From Saccoglossus kowalevskii (taxonomy: Eukaryota > Hemichordata > Enteropneusta > Harrimaniidae), in assembly GCF_000003605.2 (NCBI RefSeq), contig NW_003132853.1:105543-156314 (forward strand): a DNA stretch of 50,772 nucleotides. The letters are read 5' to 3'. The notes beneath the pieces were generated by a model. It made no database searches. It saw only the letters and a list, made by a program, of their open reading frames with translations, and was not told the DNA's origin. This document shows, one piece after another, positions 645 through 48,106 of the stretch. Made by a program: the position numbers and the translations under genes. Numbering within the stretch: the stretch's first letter is position 1; each line of letters starts with the position of its first letter.

Positions 645-1069
645 ATGGCTGCGCCCATGCTGCGGTGCGGCTTTGAAAGTTTCCCTCGGATATTAGGCAG
701 AGCTCTGTCCCGAAGATCATTTTCATCGACGAACGGGAACGATTCCGACCAAACGGAGAATGAACAAACTGGCAGTGATGGAGGACTTGCCAACAACGAC
801 ACTGTCGATACGCAATCAAAAGTAACAGGTTTTGCAAAAGCTTTTGTGAAACATGCAACAATACTAGATGAACCACCTCCAATGGTGGAGCCTCCAAGGT
901 CCTTTGCCAGTATGTTCAGGAATTCTACTCTTGTCCACATCGGGGATGGTAAAGATGCCGTTGTCATCGGGAAAATATTTCACGTTGTTGGCGACGATTT
1001 ATATATAAATTTTGGTGGCAAGTTTCACTGTGTTTGTAAAAGGCCAAGTATTCCCGACATTGATCCGCG
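645..1069 (+). CDS. MRPS28: MRPS28 coding exon 1
   Basis: Encodes the presequence, linker and first part of the core, ending in phase 2 at a CG|GTAAGT donor. The open frame runs one codon into the intron and then stops. Confidence 0.92.
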
Positions 1070-1805
1070 GTAAGTGTTGATGTCCATAGCTAGATGTCAG
1101 TAGCTAGCCGTCACCTGTCCGCCATGCCTCGGCATTGGTGTAATTTGATGGTGTATGGGGGTGCCCTTCTTCAGCAGCATGAAGAACGTTGACCTTTCTC
1201 TCTAGAAGAGTTGTGCTATTACAATTTCTTCAAAATGATGGGGATTGGGAGAATGGTAATTAGTTCTTCTAGGTCTAGATATGGGCAAGTGATTGATGAG
1301 TGGAGTGATCACTCTTCTTAAAAAGTAAGGTCTGGTATACTTACATGTATGATTGTTAATGAACTTGCTTAATTAAACCATTTTCAACAATTTTTCTAAT
1401 AATGGTCTGATTTGTTGACATGTTGTTTCATTTTTCACATACAGTATTTCCTTAAGACAGGATGTAAATTTTAACAATTATTTACATAACCACACAATGA
1501 ATCATTAATTCTGGTGACTTGATTTCAATTAGCATATTTTTATTTTCTTGGTAATATACCAATGTGTTCTCACTGAAATGCACTAAAGATGACTGTACAT
1601 CACTGAAATGTACTAATTCTGTGCTATTGTCATATTCCACTGCTTATTCTTCTCTTCTCTTAATCACAGGAGATTTCATCGTGGTGTGAAAGTTCGTCTA
1701 CGTCTTCACGATTTGGAACTTGCTCAGCATTTTATTGGTGCTACTCATGATATCTCTCTATTAGAAGCAGATGCTACACTACTTGGACTTGCAGATAAAC
1801 AATGA
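645..1805 (+). CDS. MRPS28: Mitochondrial ribosomal protein S28 (bS1m), two exons
   Basis: A structural protein of the small subunit of the mitochondrial ribosome, acting in the matrix. Coding exons are 645-1069 and 1670-1805, joined through a GT-AG intron (CG|GTAAG donor, ATCACAG acceptor) that splits an Arg codon. The product is 186 residues, the usual length for this family. Residues 1-28 hold five Arg and one acidic residue, as expected for a mitochondrial targeting peptide. A polar linker follows, then the family core from about residue 70: [33 protein letters not shown], and in exon 2 [10 protein letters not shown] and FIGATHD. These match animal MRPS28 in order and spacing. The ATG at 645 lies in AAAATGGCTGC, both a good start context and a YY1-like site common at housekeeping starts. 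No frameshift or missing segment is seen. Identification is by recognition of the family sequence, not by a search. Confidence 0.95.
1670..1805 (+). CDS. MRPS28: MRPS28 coding exon 2
   Basis: Begins after TAATCACAG, completes the split Arg codon and encodes the C-terminal 45 residues, including [10 protein letters not shown] and EADATLLGL, ending with TGA at 1803-1805. It is short and therefore easily missed by ORF length filters. Confidence 0.92.
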
Positions 1806-4524: not shown

Positions 4525-4887
4525 GAAGGCGCGACAATGTCATATAAATCAATATCGGATATATAAAATCTAATGAAATGTTGGCAGAGATGTCTAACTT
4601 ATACATTTTTAGACATTATTAGACGCCCAGACAGACCTGTATAACTCAGACATTATTGGACGATTTTATCGATATTATCGATAATATCGGAGAAAAACGA
4701 ACTGTCCCAATAGTTGCCTCGACAGACCTGTCTAACTTAGACATTTTTAGACATTGTTAGACGATATTATCGGTAATATCGCAGAAAAAACGAACTGTTC
4801 CAATAGTTGCCCAGACAGACCTGTCTAACTTAGACATTTTTAGACGATAATATTGGATAACGTTAAAAAGTGCAATGTCGCGCCTTC
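4525..4887. mobile_element. Small element with GAAGGCGCGACA terminal inverted repeats
   Basis: The ends 4525-4539 and 4873-4887 are near-perfect inverted repeats (GAAGGCGCGACAATG against GAAGGCGCGACATTG). Inside are about 2.5 tandem copies of a roughly 92-base unit (about 4630-4857) that includes CAGACAGACCTGT, TTAGACATTTTTAGAC and runs rich in TATCGATAATATCG. It has no coding capacity, as expected of a non-autonomous DNA transposon. No clear target-site duplication is visible. Confidence 0.55.
4630..4857. repeat. About 2.5 tandem copies of a ~92-bp unit
   Basis: Copies begin near 4630, 4722 and 4813, each with GACAGACCTGT followed by AGACATT-type strings. The first two also carry AACGAACTGT and CCAATAGTTGCC near their ends. 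The units are internal to the inverted-repeat element. Confidence 0.6.
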
Positions 4888-11506: not shown

Positions 11507-11730
11507 TGTTTGTGATGGACGGACTGGGTGTACAATGAATATTAAGAATATTAATGAGTAAACAGTGTTTGTGATGGACGGACTGGGTGTGCAATGAATA
11601 TTAAGAATATTAATGAGTAAACAGTGTTTGTGATGAACGAACTGGGTGTACAATGAATATTAAGAATATTAATAAGTAAATAGTGTTTGTGATGGACGGA
11701 CTGGGTGTACAATGAATATTAAGAATATTA
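11507..11730. repeat. Tandem array, 3.8 copies of a 59-bp unit
   Basis: TGTTTGTGATGGACGGACTG starts at 11507, 11566, 11625 and 11684. The copies differ at only a few positions, and the fourth is cut off before AATGAGTAAACAG. The overlapping open frames on the minus strand are by-products of the repeat. Confidence 0.92.
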
Positions 11731-12392: not shown

Positions 12393-13797
12393 ATGTGGCC
12401 ACGTGAATAGGGGGGAAATGGCAGAAGCAGGCGGTTATGTCAGGTGTCGGCCACGTGAATAGAGGAAATGGCAGAAGCAGGCGGTTATGTCAGGTGTTGG
12501 TCACGTGATTAGGGGAAATGGCAGAAGCAGGCAGTTATGTCAGGTGATGGTCACGTGTAAAGAGAAAATGGCAGAAGCAGGTGGTTATGTCAGGTGTTGG
12601 TCACGTGAATAGATAGAGGAAATGGCAGAAGCAGGCGGTTATGTCAGGTGTTGGTCACGTGTATAGAGGAAATGGCAGAAGCAGGCGGTTACGTCAGGTG
12701 TCAGTCACGTGTATAGGGGAAATGGCAGAAGCAGGCGGTTATGTCAGGTGTTGGTCACGTGAATAGGGGAAATAGCAGAAGCAGGCGGTTATGTCAGGTG
12801 TTGGCCACGTGAATAGAGGAAATGGCAGAAGCAGGCGGTTGTGTCAGGTGTTGGTCACGTGAATAGATAGAGGAAATGGCAGAAGCAGGCGGTTATGTCA
12901 GGTGTCAGTCACGTGTATAGAGGAAATGGCAGAAGCAGGCGGTTATGTCAGGTGTTGGTCACGTGAATAGAGGAAATGGCAGAATCAGGCGGTTATGTCA
13001 GGTGTTGGTCACGTGAATAGATAGAGAAAATGGCAGAAGCAGGCAGTTATGTCAGGTGTTGGTCACGTGTATAGAGGAAATGGCAGAAGCAGGCGGTTAT
13101 GTCAGGTGTTGGTCACGTGAATAGGGGAAATGGTAGAAGCAGGCAGTTATGTCAGGTGTTGGTCACGTGTATAGAGGAAATGGCAGAAGCAGGCGGTTAT
13201 GTCAGGTGTCAGTCACGTGTATAGAGGAAATTGCAGAAGCAGGCAGTTATGTCAGGTGTTGGTCACGTGTATAGAGAAAATGGCAGAAGCAGGCGGTTAT
13301 GTCAGGTGTCGGTCACGTGTATAGAGGAAATGGCAGAAGTAGGCGGTTATGTCAGGTGTTGGTCACGTGTATAGAGAAAATGTCACAAGTAGGCGGTTAT
13401 GTCATGTGTTGGTCACGTGTATAGAGGAAATGGCAGAAGCAGGCGGTTATGTCAGATGTTGGCCACGTGAATAAAGGGAATGGCAGAAGCAGGCGGTTAT
13501 GTCAGGTGTCCGTCACGTGAATAGGGGAAATAGCAGAAGCAGGCGGTTATGTCAGGTGTTGGCCACGTGAATAGAGGAAATGGCAGAAGCAGGCGGTTAT
13601 GTCAGGTGTCGGTGACGTGTATAGAGGAAATGGCAGAAGCAGGCGGTTATGTCAGGTGTCGGTCACGTGAATAGGGGAAATGGCAGAAGCAGGCGGTCAT
13701 GTCAGGTGTCAGTCACGTGTATAGAGGAAATGGCAGAAGCAGGCGATTATGTCATGTGTCGGTCACGTGAATAGGGGAAATGACAGGCGTCTTCTTT
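12393..13797. repeat. 50-bp minisatellite, about 28 copies, two E-boxes per unit
   Basis: The unit reads GGTCACGTG, ATAGAGGAAATGGCAGAAGC, AGGCGGTTATGTCAGGTGTT. Most units are exactly 50 bases. Three (near 12601, 12851 and 13011) are 54, through duplication of ATAG. CACGTG is intact in nearly all units (one has GACGTG near 13611), and CAGGTG lies 11 bases before it, measured start to start. Diverged remnants with GGTCACGTG continue to about 13903. Confidence 0.95.
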
Positions 13798-28700: not shown

Positions 28701-29300
28701 GCGTGCTGCTTCCAGCTCCGGGAAAACGTGATCACCGGAATCATGCCCATTGTCAAAGGGGTATGGGACTAAGGAGATTATAAGAGGCTACTGACTAAAT
28801 ACAAATATTTATATTCTACAATACATATTTTATTATCACTATTAGAGCCGTAATATTAATTTATTTATAGTCGCTAGAATACCAAAATGCTAAATATAAC
28901 GTGTATTAACCCCATTTCCAATACAAACTTTGGTACAACAATAATGCATTTTATTTTTTTGTTAATTTTTGGACCAAATGGACATACTTTTCCATTGGCC
29001 ACAGGTTTTGGTCAAAATCTTCGAAAATATATGGACAACAGGACAAGGTCGAACTAAAATTCAAGAGTGTTAAAATGCAAGATGTTTTAATAGATAAAGA
29101 TGAGAAACAGTGTGCGTTTCCATGGCCACTCTATAAAGTTGGAGTGGTTTTGATGAAATCTCTATCAAAGGCGAGAGCCAAATTTATGGAAAAAAACAAG
29201 AATGATTTCTTTGTTTTTGTTTTATTGTCAATCCAAGTGTGCTGTTGTTTAAATTAATATAGAAAACAAAAGATGAGTTTGCGAATACCCACTGAAGTAA
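19701..29300. other. Long gene-free stretch
   Basis: No gene is recognised in nearly 10 kb. Short dispersed blocks are seen: ATGAACAAATCTGA occurs twice (about 21942 and 22100), and GTTAAYTTTKGGACCARAT-like strings occur at about 22160 and 28965, with a weaker relative near 31840. A two-copy 15-bp repeat (CACGTAGCACAATG) lies at 23860-23890. A CRE-like pair (TGACGTAA, TGACGTCA) lies at 27568-27585. A stretch at 20723-21012 is open on both strands but has no recognised content. Confidence 0.45.
27935..28162 (-). CDS. Candidate short ORF (75 residues), function unknown
   Basis: On the minus strand, CAAGATGGCTGG gives a strong start context at 28162. The frame runs 75 codons to a stop at 27935 (starting MAGKLTQYLILPF). 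About 40 bases upstream is TATATATA (28201-28208), and between them is TGACGTAA-like sequence, so the arrangement resembles a compact promoter. The same frame is open further upstream. No family is recognised and no poly(A) signal was tied to it; chance is a real possibility. Confidence 0.15.
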   Translation of the reverse strand: MAGKLTQYLILPFIRKVRPMCWHPVKTVSVPIARLIASLCFVKNGLDSHVGHVSFVLSPPSAALIHGCNKCYFYA

Positions 29301-30136
29301 AATAGTCGAGCCCAATGCCCAGCCTGCACCAAAGCTAGGAACCAACCGTGGGAAAATAGTCATAACAATAGAAGGCTGCAAATTTCTGAATACATTAACT
29401 GATACTATACTAAACTTATCACAGGCGGCAAACAAAAGTTGGTAGCGACTATGGAAAATGTGGCGGTAGGCTATCTCGTAGTGAAGGCAGGAAGCACGGG
29501 CTTGTAGGAATTGGCGAGTGGTGCTGGCATGTGACAAGAGACACTGGTCGGACCGACGTGTGGGCAATAATCGACCGCTATCATTGTCAACTGTATTGGG
29601 ACAACACAGTTAGACTGCCAATTATGCAGTTATATACACCAAAGGAACGGGTCCCATTGTATGTCTGACCGTTACACTTCCATGGTACGGGTCATATTTA
29701 GTCAGACTAATAGCAGGACACGACACGTGCCAAAAATAGGCTTTCCGCTAAAAACAATAAAATCGCCTGTTTGTGACATCGGTTGATCCGGAGATTGCAG
29801 AACCACGTGTCGTAATCGTTGGATTTGTTTCAACAAATTACGCACCTCACATAAAAAACTAAAGTATTTTTGAGTTATGCCATAATAATGACTGATTCGT
29901 TAAACTTAGTTTCACTGATGTCATGTGCTCAATTTCAACTACACTGTATTACAATTCGAATAAATTACGGCTTCGCACGAAGTCCCCTGGCCCGGGAAAC
30001 ATTAACCATTTTTCTCTCTTTGAAACTTACTCTTTCGTTCAATATTCAAACTATTATACATTCATATCCGAAAAGAACGATACATTTTGTTCAAAGTTTT
30101 AAAGAAAAAAATGACATACTGACGATAAAGTCGTGG

Positions 30137-30210
30137 AATAAAATAAAATAAAATAAAATAAAATAAAATAAAATAAAATAAAATAAAATAAAATAAAATA
30201 AAATAAAATA
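30137..30210. repeat. (AAAAT)n microsatellite
   Basis: An uninterrupted pentanucleotide array of about 15 copies. It produces a spurious Phe/Tyr/Ile/Leu-rich frame on the minus strand. Confidence 0.95.
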
Positions 30211-33200
30211 ATGCATCTACATTCGTTTTGGGTTTGATTTGAGTTAACAAAGAACATACAGGGAACACTGAAACTAAAATGGTTATGGTTGGCAGTGGTT
30301 TGATATATTCAAATACCAACAATTCATCACGAATTTATCAGTGAGTTATATGGGATGACAAATAAATTTGTATTTCAGATACACTTGTGCCGTCACGTGA
30401 AAAATGTTTACTAGCGATTTTATTAATATCATTGTCTTCTTTTACGAATTCACTGAATAACTATTCCTAAAAAAAATACTATTCAAGTTTCTGCCATTCG
30501 ACCAAAGATATGTTTCGTGGTGGAACAAACTGTTTACAAAATTAACAAAAAGCGATCAAACGACTAATTGCCGGCTAAGAATCGAACACGGTGTCACACT
30601 GGGCGGTAATTATTACCTCTTGCCTGTGAATTGACACACAGACTTTCCAGTAATGAAATAACTAAATCAGGTTCGATAGAGCCTGGGAGCGGTATTCCAG
30701 CTATTCGATGGAAACATCCCGTTCCCACGGTAGACGCGAGCCGAGCGTGTAACGTTATTCCTATAGACCGCTCCATGTGATTGGTTCAGAGGATCGTGGT
30801 ACAAGCAAGGGTAGCGCACTGGATAAACCAATCAGGCGAGCCGTTCTTATTAGCATGAAACCCACTCAGCATGTTGACCCAACGCTGTGTGTAAGATAGC
30901 ATAACATTGTAATCTGTGGGCATGCTGGCATATTGTGGAGCATAAACTCGACGCTGACAGCTATCCGGCTACCGTGACCAAACATGCTGGCAAACATTCT
31001 TCCTTATTTTGCTCCCTTCGGCAGAAACTTTTGTCATCAATAATTCGGGACTTTAAACACCCGTCGCGGACTTCGCGTCGCGGAATGATTCCCGCTGAGT
31101 CATGAACAAACTTGAACGTCCAATATAGTATGCTAGTCCCTATACTAATATAATTTTAATTAAACGAATATAATCCCATCTATTCTCAACAGATATGTCA
31201 TACTCTGGTGACAACTGGCGGGTTAGAATATATCGCTGGACATCGCCGTGATGCGAAACCATGACAACATCTCGGTTACTGCTTTGGTGTTAATATGTTC
31301 CTAAACAGACACGTGTCACCTTAGGTTTAATGGTGGGATTGTAGAAGCCGTCGAAAAGAGCAGTTTATTTTCAAGTTCGCATCAATGAAATATATATTAA
31401 TTGTCAGAGTGTGGAAACCCCAGGGACCGCTCAGTGGTGCACCTGCACATTGACCAACCTATAGATACAGTACAGTATGAGGGTCGAACGATTCGTTCCG
31501 TGTGTGCATTAAATAATTTCCTCTATATACATTGAACATGCACGCAACAGCGTTGATTGACTAAACATCGGTGGTGGCACGATAACGCACTGACTCGACG
31601 TTTGACCAATTGGCGTAGGATTACGCCGTGAACGCGAAATGATGTAAATCTGAATCGCAATCGACACCAATCGCTACGCTAAGGCTGACACTTGGAACCA
31701 ATTCAAAAGTCGAAGCATATTAGCCCTAAAATAACAACATGAAAATGACCTATTTTATAGCCTGCTGGTCGCAGCTGAATCGTTTTAAGCACAAATTGAA
31801 AATAAATAAAAATATACACCGGTTTATCATCAAATTTAGGACCAGATGGAGCCAGTGTTATGTTCTTTTCGAATTGTTGCCATGGAAATGTTACGTTGGC
31901 GGAAAACGAATAAATGTGACGATGCTGTAGGAAATATCATAATTATTAAACAATGTTTGCTTTCAATATTTTGAGCAGAAACAATAATACTACTAAACAA
32001 AAAGACTGTGTAGTTATTTTAGGTTCGTAACAGCGGGAACAAGAATTTCACGGACAAGATCTCTTATTCGCCAACAACACATGCATTAGCACGCGAGCAC
32101 GACAAAGTCAGTGTGAGTCGTGTGCAGCGTCAAAGTGAGTGCGTTAAAGTTGTGCAATGTGCTTAAGCGTGTTGTGCGTACGACTGGCACGTTTTTGGAC
32201 AAGACAAGCTACCCTGTTTCGCTTTAAAATCGAACACACAGGAAAGGCGTAAACCCGACGACAAATTATACAATAAAATATTCATTGGTGAATATATTTG
32301 AATCAGCTATATCGATTCGTTGGTGTTGTAGACTTTTAAAATTACTCTTTGTGCCATTGTGAATTTTTTACAATAATATAGTAATTCTATATATATAAAA
32401 TAGTTTGTATTAAATATATATATATATATATATATCAATATGAATAATTGTTTCCTGTGGTCTCACACGCCGCTATGCGGGTGTAAAGGGTCACGCCTGG
32501 TGTTGATTTCCGGCGTATAAACCAATAATCGGCTGCTTTCCGATTGGTCATTCACGTTAGTTGGCAACGCATGAGATACACTAACTCTGCGATTTTAGCA
32601 ACTAACTCGGATATGCAGCTAAAATGTAAGCGATGACAATAACGAATCCCGTTTTCCCGTGTAATCATTTAAAAAGGTTTCATCGGACAGAATAGAGGGG
32701 GGGGGGCTCAATATAACAAAGATATCAAACGTTTGAAACATTGCAGTATACGCGTATACTATTCTGTTTGCGCCCCAGTCAGAGTTGGTCGAATTTTTCC
32801 ATGGGAAAATGTCGAAAACAATGGCAACAGACACTGCCTATACAATGCTCATTGGCCCGGGGCTAACGGCTAAAGATTTGTAAAGCAAATATACCAAACA
32901 ATGGTACGTAAAGGCCGGCATTGTGGAAGACTGCCAAGGGGCGCTCTTGGTATAGTCCATACACAATGCGCGCACACGCTCCTTTCAGTTGGCGTACCGT
33001 CACTCAAGGCAATCGCATTGTCCATTCTGGTGCTCGCCCACTGCCGTTTTCGGGCGGGTGAGTTTTTGTAACTGTGCCCGTTCTCATTTATATGCAAGTA
33101 TCTGCATCCCCTAGTGTCGTTGAAGCCAGGAATTTCATTTTAGTTACACCCGTTTGGTTTTAAACAAAGACAATTCAGCGAGGACGGGCGGCAATGAACG

Positions 33201-36200
33201 TTTTCATCCCGGTTTCAGTAGCGGCCACCCCTCTTTGGAGAAGTAGGTCCTTTTCTTTAATGGGAAGACAAGACACCTGCATACACGTGTACGGCCATAG
33301 AGATATTGCAGCTAATGTACACTTAGCTTTCTTCCAATACATTGTACATTAGGGCACACGTAGCCACACAATTTAACGCTTCAGTGAGAATGTTTGTCAG
33401 CAGTGTGAGAACAAACATAGTATACGCTATATTCGGCGTAAACACAGCAACACTTTCTGTCTCACCGTTCAGTGAACGTTACAAATGTGGAGGTAATTGT
33501 AACTACATATGGACTGTCTTGATATTTAAGACAAATAAGAATTGCATGTTTCTTGTACTAGTTATTGCTGCAGTGGGCTTCCTTGTTTATTTTAGTATTT
33601 AGTAGAACTTCATTTCAGGTGACTTTCCTCCAGCTTACATGTAAAACCCAGTGCCCTTTGCGATACCATCGGGGCATCATGGTGAGTGTGGGAAAATTCA
33701 GCGGGCAGCTGCAAGTCGGAATGACAAATTAGGGCCATAGAGAAGGAGAGCATTGTTATTCCGTGGAACATTTTTCGGGAGATCACAATTGCCCAGTTTT
33801 TCGCCAACATTAAATTGTGCTCCACAATGAAATTAAAAACGCGAATGACATTTCATCATTGAGACGAATCGTTAATGTATACACGTTGGAGTCAAAGTGT
33901 GAACTTGTCCCCGTTTGACCGGTCACGTATTGCAAACAAGGCACACTCCAGTACGTGGCAAAAGTGTCCAATGCGTTCGGGAGGGTGACACAGACAGTGG
34001 GAGGAGACCGTTTTCGCGCTCTATTGTCATTGTTTCGGAGTTCAACAACAGAAATGACAAAAACCATTGAAAAGGGGCCCGTTATGATGGTCGCCCAGTA
34101 TTAATCGTCAGTGTTTTTTTCACACGTGATAACGATTATGGATATCGATAGCTGGGGTTCCAGCTGAGAGAGACACACACATAGAGAACGAAACAGTTAT
34201 ATGTATATGAGAAGGAAACAAAGATATAGACGCGTTAATAACATTGACAAGAATAATTTCACCAACAATTGCATTGACGTGCTTAAGTAAACGGATATCA
34301 TTGCAAGGAGCGTGTACTTTTCCAAGTTTACGTTTTCACTAGTAAAGTCTCCCATCGGCCCCGTTAATGGAAACATTTTTAAATGGAGCATACTTCTGGA
34401 TTTATTACACTTTCTTATTAATTTTGCATTATGGTTATTTATTGAAAACCATTGCCTTAAAAATGTATTTAAATGCACGTTGCATACAATGGTAATAGCA
34501 CAGGAAAAACAATTAAGAGAGAAACGCGATTAAATAAAGATATTGTGGGAACTGTTTGTGGCTTAATTGGTCATAAAAAGAAGAATCATTGCCATCAATG
34601 CGGTGACGTCAGAGGAGAATCTGAAATGGCGACACATAACTCCCTAGTGGCCAGTTGTCGCTGTTCTCAAGGGATCAGTACCATACACAATACCGTGTGG
34701 GAAATTGTTCGTCTAGGGTTCTCTCAACGTTTTATCCCATGATTCAACAGTCGGAGATCACGATCATCAATTTAAATGCTTTTTTAATAGTCGATTTTTA
34801 CCGCGGTGATTTTTTTTTACAATTTCTGTTTCCAGGCCAGAAGCTTAAAGGGCATTTAAGAGAAGAAACTCTCGTAAAGATATACACATCACGTTTTGTC
34901 ACGTGACACAATTGGCGAGCACGGAGGCACGCATGTGCTCTGACTGTGTGCATCAGTACTGGCGACTGTACAGAAAACATTGCCAAAAAAAAAAAACAAG
35001 TATGCAGGGAGAGTCAATTATCGCCAGCCTTCTGACAGTTACTGCGAAGGACTGGTGCTTATGGCTGGACAGCGTGCGAACGTCTGCTCAGAGACCATCA
35101 ATCAACGTTTTATCTTCGTCATCCAGCGCATGGAGACCGTAGTTTTCCATAGCGTTGGTGCCTGGCCAATAAGTTATCTCAGCCCTGCTATGAAGCCGTG
35201 TTGTACATTTCATCTATACGCTCAGCGCCAAGGGAGGGCATAGGATAGTTAGCCTGGCAAAGATCTTAGGTTACACGACTGGGACCCTAACCGCCGTTCG
35301 CACGGCGATATGATTACAACTCACACTCTGTTCTGTGGGAAACTGTCGTTAATGTAATAGCCTATACCTCTACCATGACTCTGATTGGCTCTCTCCATTT
35401 CTCCCCAGACTACTCTAATTGTTGAGCGTCGCCCGATGTTTTAATCTATTGGCCTCCAATCAGAAGCATAAAGTTGACTTTAGTGTATTTATAAATCATC
35501 CGGTTGGTGCTAGGTGTTCAGCATGACCAGCGAACGTTGGGAAACATATTTGCAAAGTGAGATGCGATAGCTGAAAGAGAAATCAAATACTCAGCGATAC
35601 TCAGGTTCAAAAATAATCCCCTTTCCCACACGCAGCGCAGCCACCGATGTTGACGACCAGCTTCTTTTCACTGAACGACTTTCGGACGCTCGCCTCAATT
35701 TCCGCAACGTTTGCCAAGATAATATCTTCCAGTGTGCAAGCGTTCAGGCGCAAAGTCGGGTTATTCAAATATACACTAACCCGCCCGAACAACGTAACAT
35801 AATGTGTTTACTATTATATACTCTGCGATAATTTTAAGGAAACAGATCTACACAGAAAAAATAAAAACATACTGTAAAAATCACAGAAACAATGGTTACA
35901 AAAGTATATATAGCAAAGCACTCACATTTAATAGAGAAATCGAAAACAAAAGCAAAACAAAGCAGCAACACCCCCCCCCCCAATCTTGCTCCTAAGAAAA
36001 AAAAAATTTTTCAGTTTTATATTTCACTCAGGCTCTTCCAGAGCGGCCAGCCCCTAAGGCGTCACCGTAACTGTCGTCGAATCGATCTATTTATTGAAAT
36101 CAGTTAAAATATTTCAGACTAATGGATGACCCCTATGATTTACGTCCTACGCCCGATCAACACTTCAAAAAAATGTCCAAACATGTTAGGACTTCTCTAG

Positions 36201-38100
36201 ATACATGTACCCGAATTGGAAGGACTGGAAATTAAATGTCAACTTCCATGGAACAGTGGAAACGTGTATACATATCATATTATGAACTGAACATTTTCTT
36301 AAACTTTAATGCGTAAAAAATTGTATGCGACTAAAGCTACATACAAGTCAAATGCTCTTCAGTTTTAAACGAGAAAGAAATCGTTGATGAAATGCATAAA
36401 GTTGCTGGGATCAAACATTTCACACGACATCAGTTAGTAGATTATATGAGTCGTCGTCGTTGTAGCTTCACAGACAGTTAAGACGGATAAAACATCGAAA
36501 CTAAAATGAATTAAGGACCAATAAATTTCCACGTGACGTACCCCCCCCCCCACTTTTAAAATAGAACATAACATGCCAGTATTTCCGGATTTCTTTTTTT
36601 AAAATGTGCAATTTGATATTCTAAGAAAAATACCCACGTCGACGAGAAAATATCACCATTCATTTATCTACCACGACTGGGTGAAATGTGTCCATTACCA
36701 TACAGCAATTTGCGGTTTAGTCATACTGTGTTATAAACACGGTTGTTAGTAAAGATTATCGGTCACGCGCACGCGTGTCCAGTGGCCTGAGTGGAGAGCG
36801 ACCTCCGGGCCAATTATGATATCAACACCTAACACATGTCTCTTATCAGGCACACGCGAGTCGCTTTCCGTATCGCCAGTGTTGTTTTTGTCAAACAGAC
36901 GCACTAGTTAATACCTCATTCGGTTTTATTAGGCTTCAGTTTAATTCCCCCATCTCATTTTCGTTATTCGGAACAGTCGTGTTTTCAGCATCCTCTCGTT
37001 AAATGTACAACTCTTCCCCATCGCTGTTACTGACTCTAAGAAACACTATTTGAATGAGTCATCGTCATTTGAATGTATGATGAAGTGTCTAGAAACCGCC
37101 TATTTCAACTGAGTAGAGAAATAGACAACACTTGAATAGGAAACTAGAGACTCGCTGATCACCGAAAATTTTCTATTCGGAACATTGGTTCAACACGATG
37201 AGAAACTGATATTGAGATACAATGTGAACTTGAATGACGCCGAAATAAACATAATATTAAACGTATATAAATACAATACACGCAGTTTGGTGGTTCTGAA
37301 AATAATAACAAACACACACTTTATTTTATTTGAATGGTAATTGCTGATTTTGTAGCGGAAGTATTTAATAAACCATACTGTATATTTGCTCTGATTTACA
37401 TGAGTAGGGTGTCAATGTATGAATGCACCCGTGGAGCACGTCGTAGACTAATTATCTGGACAGTTGTCCAAGAGTCGATGGGTGTGGACGATGACAGAGA
37501 GGGTAGAGTGCCAAGTGTCCGTCACTGTGTCCCATACACATTCAGTGTGTGTCGCGTTTTATTGCCCAACGTTCATACTCAGTGCGATGAAAGAGGGTAA
37601 CAGTATTGATGAGTATCAGTCGCTGTCTCGACAGCTACCCACTGAAACAACAACAATCACAATGTTTTACAAATAAAAGTGCACTTTTATTTCGAGTCAT
37701 GGTGTATTTATGCGTGTTTGTCTTTGGCTACGCCCCCTTTATTGTCACCCCTCGATAATCTTTGTAAACGTACTGTGAGAAAGCTAGTTTTAGATCGCCC
37801 GAGGAGCAAGCGTACTTACTATCAAGTACATGAACAAGATACGGAACTGGGACACGAGATGTTTCGGACAGCTTCGAGTTTTGAATAATCCAAGCATCGT
37901 CTTGTTGAGTGCCTTGAACCAGCTGAGAAGAGCGTTTCCACCGTCTGCATAGTATTATGCGCACACACGACTAAAGTGGCGTTGAGAGAGTGATACACAG
38001 ACTGATCGGCCGGCCTACTCAATGACACACCGCCGCCTGTTAGCAATTATTCCCAATTCTGCCTTGTCACGTGTGTTTGGGCCGTGGAGCTAAAAATAAA
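30211..38100. other. Gene-free region upstream of Hey, rich in binding-site motifs
   Basis: No gene is recognised. It holds most of the CSL cluster, a TGACGTCA at 34604-34611, a GTCACGTGAC palindrome at 34898-34907, and CCAAT boxes in both orientations near 30780 and 30830. There are also an (AT)n run at 32413-32435 and C-tracts near 35970 and 36541. Open frames of 60-90 codons on both strands look random. Confidence 0.45.
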
Positions 38101-38116
38101 TAAACAAACAGCCGAC

Positions 38117-38125
38117 CGTGGGAAC
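38117..38125 (+). promoter_or_regulatory. CSL site CGTGGGAAC
   Basis: A perfect high-affinity Su(H)/RBPJ consensus 1.07 kb upstream of the Hey start codon. It is followed by GTTTTCCC, making an imperfect palindrome. Confidence 0.5.
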
Positions 38126-38221
38126 GTTTTCCCTCAGCGAAAATACTGTGTTTACACACAATCTGGTGCTTGATTCCCCCTGTACACCACCCACCCGGGA
38201 ATGTGAGGTGTTACCCAGGCT

Positions 38222-38230
38222 GGCACGTGG
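38222..38230 (+). promoter_or_regulatory. HES/HEY-type E-box GGCACGTGG
   Basis: Matches the GGCACGTG core preferred by Hes/Hey repressors, about 0.97 kb upstream of the Hey start. It is a candidate autoregulatory site, between the CSL sites at 38117 and 38567. Confidence 0.3.
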
Positions 38231-38566
38231 GGTTATTAAACAGAATTTTGTAATGATTTTAAAGAATTTGGCGTTGAAAGGTCCATGCTTGGCATAGTTT
38301 GGATAAAAACCGTGGAAGTGCCGAACGACCCGGCGTTCCGGCGATAGACATGCTGTACAAACGCTACCCTGTTCCTTGTTCGAATTCCCCCAACCGTTTT
38401 CCCTGCCCCTCAATATTAGGATCCGTTAAAATCAGAAGTTTTCCATAGCTCGGTAGAACGTTCACACGGTAAAATCCGACCGATGATCGGTGAAGCGAAA
38501 AGTACTTGTCAAACAAAAAAGTCGGCCAGCGGTCTTGTCATTGGCCAATTTTCTATAGCTGTGTAG

Positions 38567-38575
38567 GTTCCCACG
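38567..38575 (-). promoter_or_regulatory. CSL site CGTGGGAAC on the minus strand
   Basis: Reads GTTCCCACG on the + strand. It is the same nine bases as the site at 38117, in opposite orientation, 0.62 kb upstream of the Hey start. Confidence 0.5.
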
Positions 38576-38939
38576 ATAGAGCGCGTGCATGCCGCGCGTC
38601 TATTAGGAAATACACGGTTTCATGGTCCCCACCACATTCGGCGGGTCTTTTCATTATGAACGGGTGACAGTTAAGCCGCCAGACAAAGAAAAAACCTTTG
38701 ATAACCTGAAGAACGTGAGCTTTGAATTTATTCAGTCTAGTTCGCCCCGTATTATATATGCTCTGCGTTGAAATGAAATATTTTGGTTGCGATTTTTCAG
38801 CTCCATTTTGACAACGTCTATTGCACACAAATTCTCATGGTGCACTCACCCCCGACGTCATTAACGATTAGCTGAGTCCTAAAGGGATGGCACGCGACCA
38901 TATGGGGCCATACTAGTTGGGTCTCTTGAAACCGTCCAC

Positions 38940-39192
38940 ACGATGACCGATCACCTGGTCATGCGTGAACCAATCAAGGCGCGTGAAATTGACAACATGG
39001 CATGTCGACCAGCAAATGACCTGTCAATCATTGACGTTGCCCCGCTGGGTAGGAGTGAATTTCACACACTCGAACTTTTTTATTGAGCTCCAAGCGTGGG
39101 AAATAGAGTACAGCATTTGAGAGGAGAAGACGAACGAGTCAACACGTACTTCCTGATCGCTCCCGAGAACCTAACCAAAACACACTACGAAA
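38940..39192 (+). promoter_or_regulatory. Probable Hey proximal promoter and 5' leader
   Basis: Within 250 bases of the start codon lie a CCAATCA box (38970-38976), a decamer reading TGATTGACAG on the minus strand (39021-39030, the PBX-PREP/MEIS composite site), and a weak CSL-like TTCACACA (39061-39068). They are followed by TTTTTATTG (possible TATA-like) and a perfect CSL site, CGTGGGAAA (39095-39103). A CSL site close to the core promoter is typical of vertebrate Hes/Hey genes. The transcription start is not known. Confidence 0.5.
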
Positions 39193-39251
39193 ATGAAGAG
39201 GACGTTTAGTGAAACAGAAAGTGAGGACATTTTCGACGAAATGAACAAGAG
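39193..39251 (+). CDS. HEY: Hey coding exon 1
   Basis: Encodes 19 residues plus two bases of a split Ser codon ([19 protein letters not shown]). The acidic, Ser-rich N-terminus beginning MKR is typical of Hey proteins. The donor is AG|GTAAGA. Confidence 0.88.
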
Positions 39252-41908
39252 GTAAGAAAACCAAATTCGAAATATTTTTTTAAAAAATTGTTGCCTTGCT
39301 ACAATTTTTAAGACACGTGTGCAGGCGCTCTGAAATGGGTCTTAATGTGTTGATGTTTAACGCTTGCGTGTGGCATATTGTAATCAGAGTTTTTTCTTTT
39401 GCCGTTACAGCTCACCGAGTCAGTCATGTCCACTGGCGTCACGGAAAAAACGACGCGGGGTAAGTGTTTATTTCCGCTATTTATTATTATTATTATTAAT
39501 AATAATAACAAGTATACATCCGGAGAAATATCATTATTATGGTTTTCGGTTATCAACAGTTTAACTTGGTTTACTTTGCACGCGGATTCAATGTTTACGT
39601 TCGATGGCTGGAATAACTCGATACTTGTACTGTAGCCACAATTGAACGACCGGAACAGGCATGCCACATACCATGTAACCGTAGCATGCATGTATTCCCA
39701 ATCGGCAATAGAAGTGGCGATAGTCATGGCAAATAGAAGTGACGTTCTACAAGTTGTAGGAATGGCTGACGTAGCACCGATGGTATTTCACCCCCCTCCA
39801 CACTCACGCGGGCGGGCGGGCGGGCGGGCGTGTGTGTGTGTGTGCTCGGGCGGCGTTCTTTCAACGAAGCAATCAGCTGATCGGGTCCAGGAAGTGGAAT
39901 CGAGCAACACGCCACTCCACTATACAATAGGGGTGTCGCATGTCAACTCGTACTTGATCGACGAACCTGGCGAGGCTTTTGTGTGTTGTCGCCATGGCGA
40001 CGGATTTATCCTCCATGATTGGGATGTGATGTTGTCCGGCGTACATCGTGCTTTTACTTCATTTTTTAATTATTTTTTCTTTTCTTTTTTTTTTCAACAG
40101 ATAATCGAGAAGAGACGGCGAGACAGAATCAACAACAGTCTGTCGGAGCTGCGCCGGCTCGTGCCTGCGGCATTCGAAAAACAGGTAAAAACAATTTTAA
40201 TAATGGACATTTATATTGTTTAGTTTTATAAACATTTTGGATAACACATATTTTCAATAAATAACTCTCTAACGAGGAACCTTATCATCATGTTTTTCTG
40301 AAATGCCGCAATCTAAAAAAAATTCTATAGACAGTTTGTGGGAGGGCGACTCGTGCGTGCGGGGAATATATCATACAGTCTTGGATGGTATCTCTTTGAT
40401 TTGTTTTTTGTGAGAAAAATACTAAATCGCGTTCTTATATATATATATGACTAACGCCTACTTTGTTCTTTGTTTACGTTTTCAATAGGGCTCTGCTAAG
40501 CTGGAAAAGGCCGAGATATTGCAAATGACGGTCGACCACCTGAAAATGCTTCATGCTAAAGGAGCTTGTAAGTATTATCACTATTTTAATTTTTAAGTAA
40601 TAGAATGAGTTTTATTAGTCACCTGCACCCTCTTAACGGAGGTTTCAAGGAGATAGGCGTTCTAGTGGCGTGCAGTACAGTTCAGCCAGCCAGCAAACTA
40701 CGGGCGTGAGAAAATGCCGGAAACAATACATTAGAAGTACACAGGCTTGTGCGAATGAATGGGGATCGCGCAATTAGTTTTGAATACGGAAATGACAAGG
40801 CACTGTGTTGACAAGGCTCATTTGCTATTCATGCTATGGTCTTTTATACTGGCAGTGCGTTCAATGCTTTGCTCGTGTGTTGACCGAGATACATTGCCCA
40901 GATCTATGACAGGGGAACATTCTATTCTGGCTCCCACCTGTACAGATCTGAAATATAACGTGCCCACATTTGAGGCATTGATGGAAAACAGAAAGATTAT
41001 TTTCGTTAACGATATGGTAATGAAAACGGGCTCCGGTTCTTGTTTTCTGTCTAAGCAAGTCGAGTGTTGGCACCTGCCTCCAGCATAAACTGTGGAAGTC
41101 AATGCAAAGCTATCTACAAGATCACGCCTGATTGGCTACCCAGTCCTAACAGCTACCAATCAGAGAGTAGATTGTTTGTTGAACAATTTTTCCACATATC
41201 AAATTATGTTCTGTAAACTGCATAGATAAAGATAGATATGATAAGATGGGGAACGGTATTTGCTGTACTTTTGACACATGACTAATATTTTCTTTCCTCT
41301 CATTAACAGGTATCGATGGGTCGTTCCATCCTTATGGTGACGCGCATGCCTACGCTATGGATTACCGAGCCCTTGGATTCAGAGAGTGTGCAGCGGAAGT
41401 TGCTCGTTACCTAGTAACCGTTGAAGGGTTGGACATCCAAGACCCCCTGCGTCTCCGTTTGATGAGCCATCTCCAGTGTTACTCAGCACAGCAAGAAGCA
41501 CAACGCAGACAGGCCTGGAATAACGTTTCATCCCATCACAGCCAGTTCACATCCACCACCGTAATAAGCCAACACAACAATCCTACGGACCCACATCTGT
41601 CGATACCACCTGCAGCTCCTATACAAGCCACCTCAGAACCTATGAGACAGCCAATTATGACAAGTCAGGGACCAGACACAGCATCACTACCAACCTCGTG
41701 CCACCTTCGAATGCCGTCTTCAGTCACCAGTACAAGCTGTACGGCGCAGATATCACCACAGCTTCTGTCGTCAATGCCTGCCGTGCACACGCAATTCCCC
41801 ATGTCAGTGAGCACACTACCAGTACTATCGCCTAACGGATTCAGCCCAACGTCACATACTATTGTGTCAAAACCGTACAGACCGTGGGGATCGGAACTTG
41901 TTTACTGA
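39193..41908 (+). CDS. HEY: Hey-family bHLH-Orange transcriptional repressor, five exons
   Basis: A nuclear DNA-binding repressor and direct Notch effector that dimerises with itself or Hes proteins. Coding exons are 39193-39251, 39411-39459, 40101-40184, 40489-40567 and 41310-41908. All junctions are GT-AG and in frame, giving 289 residues, the normal size. The bHLH domain spans about residues 31-87, with basic region [17 protein letters not shown]; Gly36 replaces the Hes proline and marks Hey. The Orange domain spans about 107-151, starting [12 protein letters not shown] Ser/Thr/Pro/Gln-rich linker follows, then KPYRPWG with YRPW at 280-283. The last residues, SELVY, differ from the TE(I/V)GAF tail of vertebrate Hey proteins. 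Hey1, Hey2 and HeyL are vertebrate paralogues; this gene is probably the single pre-duplication Hey, but that needs a tree. Confidence 0.96.
39411..39459 (+). CDS. HEY: Hey coding exon 2
   Basis: Only 49 bases; encodes the start of the basic region through RKKRRG and ends in phase 0 at GGG|GTAAGT. The boundary just before IIEKRRRD is the same as in vertebrate Hey genes. Confidence 0.9.
39460..40100 (+). other. Hey intron 2 with simple repeats
   Basis: A 641-base intron containing (TTA)n/(AAT)n at about 39480-39509 and a (GGGC)n-(GT)n compound microsatellite at about 39808-39844. From 39642 it stays open in the frame of exon 3, so a transcript starting inside the intron could add a different N-terminus; there is no sign that this is used. 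Confidence 0.7.
40101..40184 (+). CDS. HEY: Hey coding exon 3 (rest of basic region, helix 1)
   Basis: 28 complete codons, from [14 protein letters not shown] to AAFEKQ, flanked by a strong polypyrimidine tract with CAACAG and by CAG|GTAAAA. Glu39, which reads the CA half of the E-box, and the following arginines are present. Confidence 0.95.
40489..40567 (+). CDS. HEY: Hey coding exon 4 (loop and helix 2)
   Basis: 79 bases encoding [20 protein letters not shown] and LHAKGA, the loop and second helix of the bHLH. It ends one base into a Cys codon at T|GTAAGT. It is too short to appear in ORF lists but essential to the domain. Confidence 0.95.
41310..41908 (+). CDS. HEY: Hey terminal coding exon 5 (Orange domain, linker, YRPW)
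   Basis: Starts after CATTAACAG, completes the split Cys codon and runs 199 codons to TGA at 41906-41908. It holds the whole Orange domain and the C-terminal tail, as in vertebrate Hey genes. The middle third is rich in Ser, Thr, Pro and Gln, including [10 protein letters not shown] and [10 protein letters not shown]. Confidence 0.96.
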
Positions 41909-42830
41909 ACACACATATAGCGGAACTTGTGCAGTTTCTGTGCCATTGGACACACTGCACGGCGCCAGGCCGTGACCTATTTGCAATATCTGTTGTACCA
42001 AATACGTCAACAATCGTCAGTTATGGTGTCCGTGTTTCAGGACAACCGGGGAAGCAGGCGAAATCTCACCACCGATATTTGTACCATTGAAATGACCATA
42101 ATTTATTACATCCCTCCACCGCTCAACGTCTTATGGAGCACAACAAGGACTTATATTGAGGAAAATATAAGCTGCAAATTTGAAGTCGGCCAACCTCCAC
42201 GAACACGTGATAACTAAAGTTCTCTGACGTCACAATTTAACATCGTCAACGTTCATGGAACCTGGCCAATTAATGCTAAAATCGCATTATAAATTTAGCT
42301 CCACTGACAGAACTTGCCAAGACACAAACTTTTATTTTTTTATGAATATATGATGTTTTGTACGAAACTTATCGCCTTGAGTACCAAGCATATGAAAGAC
42401 AATCTTTATATTTTGATAATTGTTTTTCTTTATTAAATAATGCGTGATTTGTTTTTTTTCTACGAACAGGCTTCAAGGTGCCTTATCTGAAATCCTTTTC
42501 TTGTACATAGTTAACAAGAATTTATGTTTGAAATTTGTTTTATAGTTATTTATTCTTTTGTTCTAGTTCATTTGTTTGCTGCCAAACAGCTAAAGCTTGA
42601 AGCTGTATTATTCGTAGTTGCCAACGCTACACGGACTAAGCGTGATTTATGTTAGATTGGTTGGCAGTCTCATTTTTGGAGGATACTTCTATGTGATGTA
42701 GTTCCCTAACTGTCACGCATATAATGTGGATCAGTTGCGGCACTGGTCCAACCAACTGATTTCATCTACAACTACCACGTTTTTTGTAAAACCAAAGAAA
42801 GATGCAATAAATGGTATGGTATAACAGCGT
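41909..42830 (+). other. Hey 3' untranslated region with post-transcriptional motifs
   Basis: About 900 bases up to the AATAAA at 42806. It contains TGTACATA (42502-42509), which matches the Pumilio element, and TGTGAT (42692-42697), a K-box hexamer. ACCAAAGA (42791-42798) is an 8-mer complement to the miR-9 seed. A TGACGTCA lies at 42225-42232. These are motif matches only. Confidence 0.5.
42806..42811 (+). terminator. Likely poly(A) signal of Hey
   Basis: AATAAA, 898 bases after the stop codon. No intact AATAAA was noticed earlier in the 3' region, though variants occur near 42430. Confidence 0.5.
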
Positions 42831-48049: not shown

Positions 48050-48106
48050 GAAATGGCCGTTAACTACAGAAATGGCCGTTAACTACAGAAATGGCCGTTT
48101 CATTCA
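48050..48106. repeat. 19-bp tandem repeat, about 2.5 copies
   Basis: GAAATGGCCGTTAACTACA is repeated head to tail from 48050. A further TTAACTACAGAA lies just after it. Confidence 0.85.

Follow-up and report, generated by a model that had tools for sequence, protein, structure and literature searches.

A cluster of putative CSL sites upstream of and within Hey in the hemichordate Saccoglossus kowalevskii

We analysed a 50,772-nucleotide stretch of Saccoglossus kowalevskii contig NW_003132853.1 (hereafter the window, meaning the whole stretch) that carries the gene Hey, and found that matches to the recognition word of the Notch-pathway factor CSL (RBPJ / Su(H)) are concentrated upstream of and inside this gene. 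An exact scan of both strands yielded 18 matches to YGTGRGAAM, 13 of them in the strong form YGTGGGAAM; 14 (10 strong) lay in the interval 29347-40713, with two to the left (10484, 17468) and two to the right (46284, 46681). Relative to the Hey ATG at 39193, 12 of the 14 were upstream, distributed across 9.8 kb, and one each fell in intron 3 (40409) and intron 4 (40705). Very probably these 14 matches are CSL sites that form several partly redundant Notch-response elements of Hey, and Notch very probably activates Hey directly through a number of dispersed elements, as it does in flies and mice. We read direct Notch control from the excess of CSL sites, because it is shared with Hes and absent at two other relatives of Hey. 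The sequence-only reading of this DNA had counted 13 sites in 11.4 kb, nine of them strong; the cluster and the strong majority stand, both counts rise to those given here, and the two sites on either side agree with the exact scan. The 14 sites, with group labels taken from their spacing, are as follows.

29347..29355, plus strand, putative CSL site CGTGGGAAA, distal group (exact scan)
30721..30729, minus strand, putative CSL site CGTGGGAAC, distal group (exact scan)
33404..33412, plus strand, putative CSL site TGTGAGAAC, middle group; another GTGAGAA core 21 bases before
33687..33695, plus strand, putative CSL site TGTGGGAAA, middle group (exact scan)
34544..34552, plus strand, putative CSL site TGTGGGAAC, middle group (exact scan)
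34696..34704, plus strand, putative CSL site TGTGGGAAA, middle group; one-mismatch partner TTCTCTC at N15
35334..35342, plus strand, putative CSL site TGTGGGAAA, middle group (exact scan)
35622..35630, minus strand, putative CSL site TGTGGGAAA, middle group (exact scan)
37774..37782, plus strand, putative CSL site TGTGAGAAA, proximal group (exact scan)
38117..38125, plus strand, putative CSL site CGTGGGAAC, proximal group (exact scan)
38567..38575, minus strand, putative CSL site CGTGGGAAC, proximal group (exact scan)
39095..39103, plus strand, putative CSL site CGTGGGAAA, 89 bases upstream of the Hey ATG (exact scan)
40409..40417, plus strand, putative CSL site TGTGAGAAA, Hey intron 3 (exact scan and splice model)
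40705..40713, plus strand, putative CSL site CGTGAGAAA, Hey intron 4 (exact scan and splice model)

The Y...M flanks of the motif accompanied 10 of the 10 GTGGGAA cores in the interval, one of four to its left and two of two to its right. Repeats did not supply the sites: no site lay within any of the 16 repeat families or pairs identified in 29000-42000, and one AT-rich repeat arm overlapped only the last base of the site at 40409-40417. No exact head-to-head pair with a spacer of 15-17 bases was present at Hey, and the pair at 34697 (partner TTCTCTC, N15, one mismatch) was the window's sole head-to-head pair at N15-17 with one mismatch or none; with this single candidate, a paired-site architecture as the main design of Hey is unsupported.

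The earlier worry that the interval had been picked after the sites were seen is answered by gene-fixed regions, motif permutations and a joint Hey/Hes word ranking, under all of which the excess holds. Second-order simulations of the interval itself gave expectations of 1.26 YGTGRGAAM and 0.62 YGTGGGAAM, versus the 14 and 10 seen, and a best-interval scan conditional on the window totals gave P = 0.0025 for all sites. Regions anchored on the Hey ATG or gene end, and so independent of the chosen interval, were enriched at every size examined: ATG +/-10 kb held 16 of 18 sites (P = 2e-5) and 12 of 13 strong sites (P = 1.2e-4), -10 kb to the gene end held 14 (P = 4e-6) and 10 (P = 1.3e-4), -5 kb to the gene end held 10 (P = 9e-5) and seven (P = 1.4e-3), and the final 1 kb before the ATG held two of each (P = 0.048 and 0.026, respectively). 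The entire gap between Hey and its upstream neighbour MRPS28 was not enriched (14 of 18, P = 0.46; 11 of 13 strong, P = 0.29).

Column permutations of the motif, which control for base composition, placed the true words at the top when tandem arrays were masked, the YGTGGGAAM total being the highest of 7,560 permutations and that of YGTGRGAAM the highest of 30,240. Among the permutations with at least eight sites, the ones scored for clustering (5 for the strong word, 241 for all), none but the real motif reached its score. Without masking, nine of the 7,560 permutations reached 10 in some 11.4-kb stretch; the eight of these that were listed had 19 to 22 each and, judged by eye, look like the 50-base unit of a minisatellite at 12396-13786. 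An RBPJ-like matrix scored 14 sites versus 2.8 expected at threshold 11 and 14 versus 1.9 at threshold 12. In addition, with low-complexity words filtered out, GTGGGAA led the 4,783 7-mers of the interval.

Genome-wide controls gave a similar picture. The genome sequence comprises 572 Mb in 4,830 contigs and is in part N, so that site densities are lower bounds. YGTGGGAAM occurred 9,102 times, versus 6,698 for the reversed word, at a rate of 15.9 per Mb over all bases and 70 per Mb in the readable bases of control tiles. Nineteen such tiles were used (14 from the contig of the window and five from contig C2, an overlapping tile having been left out), of which seven were wholly N, and their 71,690 readable bases contained five strong sites. 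With the rate of 76 per Mb seen in the window outside the interval, the Poisson probability of at least 10 strong sites in 11.4 kb was about 3e-8. Among the first 100 strong sites listed, 82 stood alone in the following 11.4 kb, 15 made two, three made three and none made more, as against 10 at Hey. The rare form CGTGGGAAC occurred 546 times genome-wide and three times within 7.9 kb at Hey; among 100 of its places listed there were four pairs and no triple within 11.4 kb, counted by eye. Within this small readable sample, then, no unrelated region of the genome showed a CSL-site density like that at Hey, and equal density elsewhere, which the sequence-only reading had named as evidence that would tell against it, was not found.

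To Hey we compared its relatives in the same genome. An Orange-domain search of the genome sequence found four genes, namely Hey, Hes (its protein ends in WRPW; exon 1 MPADKPASKASENRK), a Helt-like gene on contig C1798 and a Stich-like gene on contig C367, the last two names being our assumption from resemblance to known sequences in short matches seen by eye. The site counts of the three relatives, each read over 10 kb, were:

C3856:29001-39000, Hes locus, 10 YGTGRGAAM, eight strong
C1798:47001-57000, Helt-like locus, no YGTGRGAAM, none strong
C367:174001-184000, Stich-like locus, one YGTGRGAAM, none strong

Strong sites therefore numbered 10 in 11.4 kb at Hey and eight in 10 kb at Hes, versus zero in 10 kb at each of the other two genes, and a further 6 kb upstream of Hes added four more, giving 12 strong sites in 12.8 kb. 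Hes is a textbook Notch target. Its promoter carried TGTGGGAA-N16-TTCACACGAG, a head-to-head GTGGGAA-N16-TTCACAC pair at about C3856:30620-30651, just upstream of a TATA box and ending 167 bases before the Hes ATG. The Su(H)/RBPJ paired site (SPS) of vertebrate Hes1 has this head-to-head form with N16 and TTCACAC, a CSL dimer site; the Hes of this genome resembles Hes1-type SPS promoters in this form, whereas Hey differs in having dispersed single sites and one weaker N15 candidate. Measured against the plain consensus, the Hes pair has one mismatch (GTGTGAA), the same count as the Hey candidate, and one one-mismatch head-to-head pair was present in the 19 control tiles. In a test of word enrichment at Hey and Hes together, with 130,813 readable bases as the background, GTGGGAA ranked first of 6,415 7-mers (10 occurrences at Hey and 13 at Hes, versus 20 in the background), TGGGAA first of 1,600 6-mers and CGTGGGAA first of 13,861 8-mers. 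Hes, the positive control, shows a similar cluster together with a promoter pair, as predicted, and the Helt-like and Stich-like genes are without a cluster. The earlier claim of a distributed Notch-responsive landscape rather than a single promoter site gains support, at the level of sequence, from the spread of the sites, the Hes control and the control tiles. The genome sequence yielded one Hes gene, versus 11 and eight in the molluscs Lottia and Pinctada, and in the table rows available to us Helt and Stich co-occur only in these two molluscs (PMC4172395).

Chance combined with base composition, acting on an interval chosen after the sites were seen, is a most improbable source of the cluster. 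The interval is slightly richer in G+C (41% versus 38-39% outside), it was picked by eye, and the RBPJ-like matrix excess was only about twofold at thresholds 8-9, so the matrix check proposed with the sequence-only reading upheld the excess at thresholds 11-12 and much less so at looser ones. Several points weigh against a Notch-response landscape at Hey: the best-interval scan of strong sites alone, conditional on the window total, gave a modest P = 0.013, partly because that total is itself inflated by the cluster; GTGGGAA fell to 7th to 9th of 5,431 7-mers when low-complexity words were kept; other words (CCATGGAA, ATTCAAATA) led the filtered 8-mers and 9-mers when the interval was ranked by itself; the Y...M flanks at Hes (8 of 13) were not clearly above background (8 of 20); the control tiles were few, 14 of 19 came from the contig of the window and 62% of their bases were N; and Hey has no strong promoter pair, only the weaker N15 candidate at 34697. 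As regards chance, the interval's own composition predicts 0.62 strong sites where 10 were seen, the real motif has the largest count among the 7,560 permutations, enrichment rises with matrix stringency, ATG-fixed regions of -5 to +/-10 kb give P values of 4e-6 to 1.4e-3, and the independent Hes locus repeats the enrichment. We therefore take chance as the main cause to be refuted by the present tests.

A second alternative, that the sites serve another GGGAA-recognising factor (Ikaros-like or NF-kB-like) rather than CSL, appears unlikely. The GGGAA core is common to Ikaros-like and NF-kB-like factors, and TGGGAA was enriched in the interval (15 versus 6.9 expected), but the excess belongs to the complete CSL word, GTG side and Y...M flanks included, GGGRNWYYCC was absent from the window outside masked tandem arrays, and the same word was enriched at Hes beside the head-to-head N16 pair. 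It is possible, though we hold it doubtful, that the sites bind CSL mainly for constant repression or persist as turnover leftovers, only the proximal and perhaps one other group being needed. The Drosophila Hey enhancers are redundant and removal of the Su(H) sites from one reporter leads to derepression (PMC11353301), and deletion of the mouse enhancer 18 kb upstream of Hey1 did not by itself significantly lower Hey1 in embryos (PMC7762959). The concentration of exact CSL words across 11 kb, however, suggests upkeep by selection, although it is silent on which elements matter.

Several partly redundant Notch-response elements would also agree with what is described for Hey genes elsewhere. 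The single Hey gene of Drosophila melanogaster has shadow enhancers, HeyUP and HeyIN2, with three upstream and four intron-2 YGTGRGAA sites that were tested by CRISPR, and Notch-dependent expression was lost only when the sites of both enhancers were deleted (PMC11353301). The likeness thus lies in a single Hey gene with both upstream and intronic sites and in redundant Notch-dependent elements such as we propose here; the available part of that paper mentions SPS only for E(spl) genes (PMC11353301). The three upstream sites of the fly gene lie about -1.9 to -2.2 kb away, inside the 3' untranslated region of a neighbour (PMC11353301), in contrast to the 12 putative upstream sites over 9.8 kb here and the single putative sites in introns 3 and 4, 10 of these 14 being of the GTGGGAA form. 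The mouse endothelial enhancer 18 kb upstream, which is Rbpj-dependent (PMC7762959) and carries the name Hey1-18 (PMC11896612), has a human counterpart at -16 kb, and together with the proximal region these give mammalian Hey1 distal and proximal Notch/Rbpj-dependent elements with apparent redundancy (PMC7762959). That enhancer was tested in vivo (PMC7762959), whereas ours are putative sites spread across the whole 10 kb. In mouse cells, dynamic RBPJ sites are over-represented in enhancer clusters (PMC11109962).

Control of gene expression by Notch through CSL as an on/off switch is established, and from this general biology we infer CSL occupancy, Notch dependence, the switch itself and the division into elements at Hey. 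Without signal, CSL would keep co-repressors at the Hey sites; after cleavage of Notch, the intracellular portion would join CSL at these sites and Hey would be transcribed. As judged from spacing, the sites may fall into a pair at the distal end (29.3-30.7 kb), a group in the middle (33.4-35.6), a promoter-proximal group (37.8-39.1) and two intronic sites (40.4-40.7). Notch-pathway parts were present in the genome sequence, with one CSL DNA-binding match (a gene fragment on contig C214) and two DSL-domain (Delta-type) matches (E = 5e-17 and 6.5e-4).

The splice model of Hey comprises five coding exons in 39193-41909 with GT-AG introns and an intact reading frame of 289 amino acids:

39193..39251, plus strand, Hey coding exon 1 (MKRTF...), splice model
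39411..39459, plus strand, Hey coding exon 2 (...KKRRG), splice model
40101..40184, plus strand, Hey coding exon 3, first part of the bHLH; 27 of 28 residues as in human HEY1; Pfam HLH
40489..40567, plus strand, Hey coding exon 4, second part of the bHLH; protein match and splice model
41310..41909, plus strand, Hey coding exon 5, with the DAHA motif, the Orange domain and the stop codon; Pfam Hairy_orange E = 2.2e-13

Pfam matched HLH (E = 3e-7, part of the domain in one exon) and Hairy_orange (at the E value listed). The signature of Hey proteins comprises an MKRXX start, DAHA, a glycine at bHLH position 6 and a C-terminal KPYRPWGXEXGAF/Y (PMC4172395), and inspection by eye found in the spliced protein an MKRTF start, GDAHA and KKRRGIIEKRRR, with glycine before IIEKRRR; at the C-terminus the signature core is kept and the GA before F/Y is replaced by V. 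As judged from the predicted protein, the gene belongs to the Hey family, the bHLH and Orange domains, MKRXX, DAHA and the bHLH glycine all being present. No Hey relatives were found in viral contigs.

MRPS28, which encodes the mitochondrial ribosomal protein bS1m, lies upstream of Hey:

645..1069, plus strand, MRPS28 coding exon 1; Pfam MRP-S35 (PF10246) E = 2.3e-22; splice model
1670..1805, plus strand, MRPS28 coding exon 2 including the stop codon (1670 and 1673 fit equally as its start); tblastn and splice model

Exon 1 matched the 28S ribosomal protein S28 in PDB (E = 6.4e-24), and exon 2 was located by tblastn with the tail of the human protein (50% identity, E = 8e-12). The two genes are neighbours, both on the plus strand, with the MRPS28 stop at 1805 separated by 37 kb from the Hey ATG. 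Human MRPS28 and HEY1 have the same order and orientation, a likeness that extends to the vertebrate MRPS28-HEY1 block with the enhancer hs1305; the adjacency is possibly a very old microsynteny, and shared regulation may have kept the linkage. The human enhancer lies in an MRPS28 intron and was assigned to HEY1 and STMN2 (PMC3599049), whereas MRPS28 here is compact, both of its coding exons fitting into 1.2 kb, and free of CSL sites in the exact scan. A hidden gene in the gap was considered and rejected, since seven gap open reading frames of at least 120 amino acids, the minimum length scanned, had no Pfam match, as was true of two outside the gap. Rfam at gathering scores gave no match in the window, a tRNA search with the bacterial setting found none, and human STMN and TPD52 proteins used as queries gave nothing convincing there. 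A literature search found one paper that brings together MRPS28, synteny and Hey but no account combining MRPS28, HEY1 and microsynteny, and the parts covered of a sponge enhancer paper contained nothing on Hey with MRPS28.

Other factor motifs were compared in 27 rows, two of them CSL and some overlapping. CACGTG occurred 11 times in the interval versus 3.9 expected, without being significantly more frequent there than elsewhere in the window (P = 0.22), and CACGCG occurred 10 times versus 5.1 expected (P = 0.034; versus the rest of the window, P = 0.035). Autoregulation by Hes/Hey through CACGYG near the start is not claimed, the six matches in 37900-39400 being equalled by other 1.5-kb stretches. 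Sox ACAAWG (31 versus 16.9 expected) and Fox TGTTTAY (13 versus 7.5 expected) were not enriched relative to the remainder of the window (P = 0.11 and 0.31, respectively). The minisatellite at 12396-13786 has 27.5 copies of its unit, the consensus of which includes CACGTG, and short tandem arrays were present at 4625-4848 (93-base unit), 11507-11730 (59-base unit) and 48050-48099 (19-base unit). The CpG observed/expected ratio of the window was 1.07; there is thus no sign of methylation-driven CpG loss.

A regulatory landscape of this kind is to be expected at Hey, and the present one is clearly marked. In flies and mammals the direct action of Notch on Hey is already established, and here the link can be read from sequence, with a contrast inside one gene family in which Hes and Hey are rich in sites and the Helt-like and Stich-like genes are poor. 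More tentatively, Hes and Hey may both lie in fields of 10-13 kb of single high-affinity CSL sites that alone separate direct Notch targets from close relatives, the field at Hey occupying the terminal part of an ancient MRPS28-Hey regulatory block. If this were true, the density of exact CSL words in such fields could be used to predict direct Notch targets from the genome alone in animals that lack functional data, and, if the pattern is kept in relatives, counting these words over about 10 kb would provide a cheap candidate list for non-model animals.

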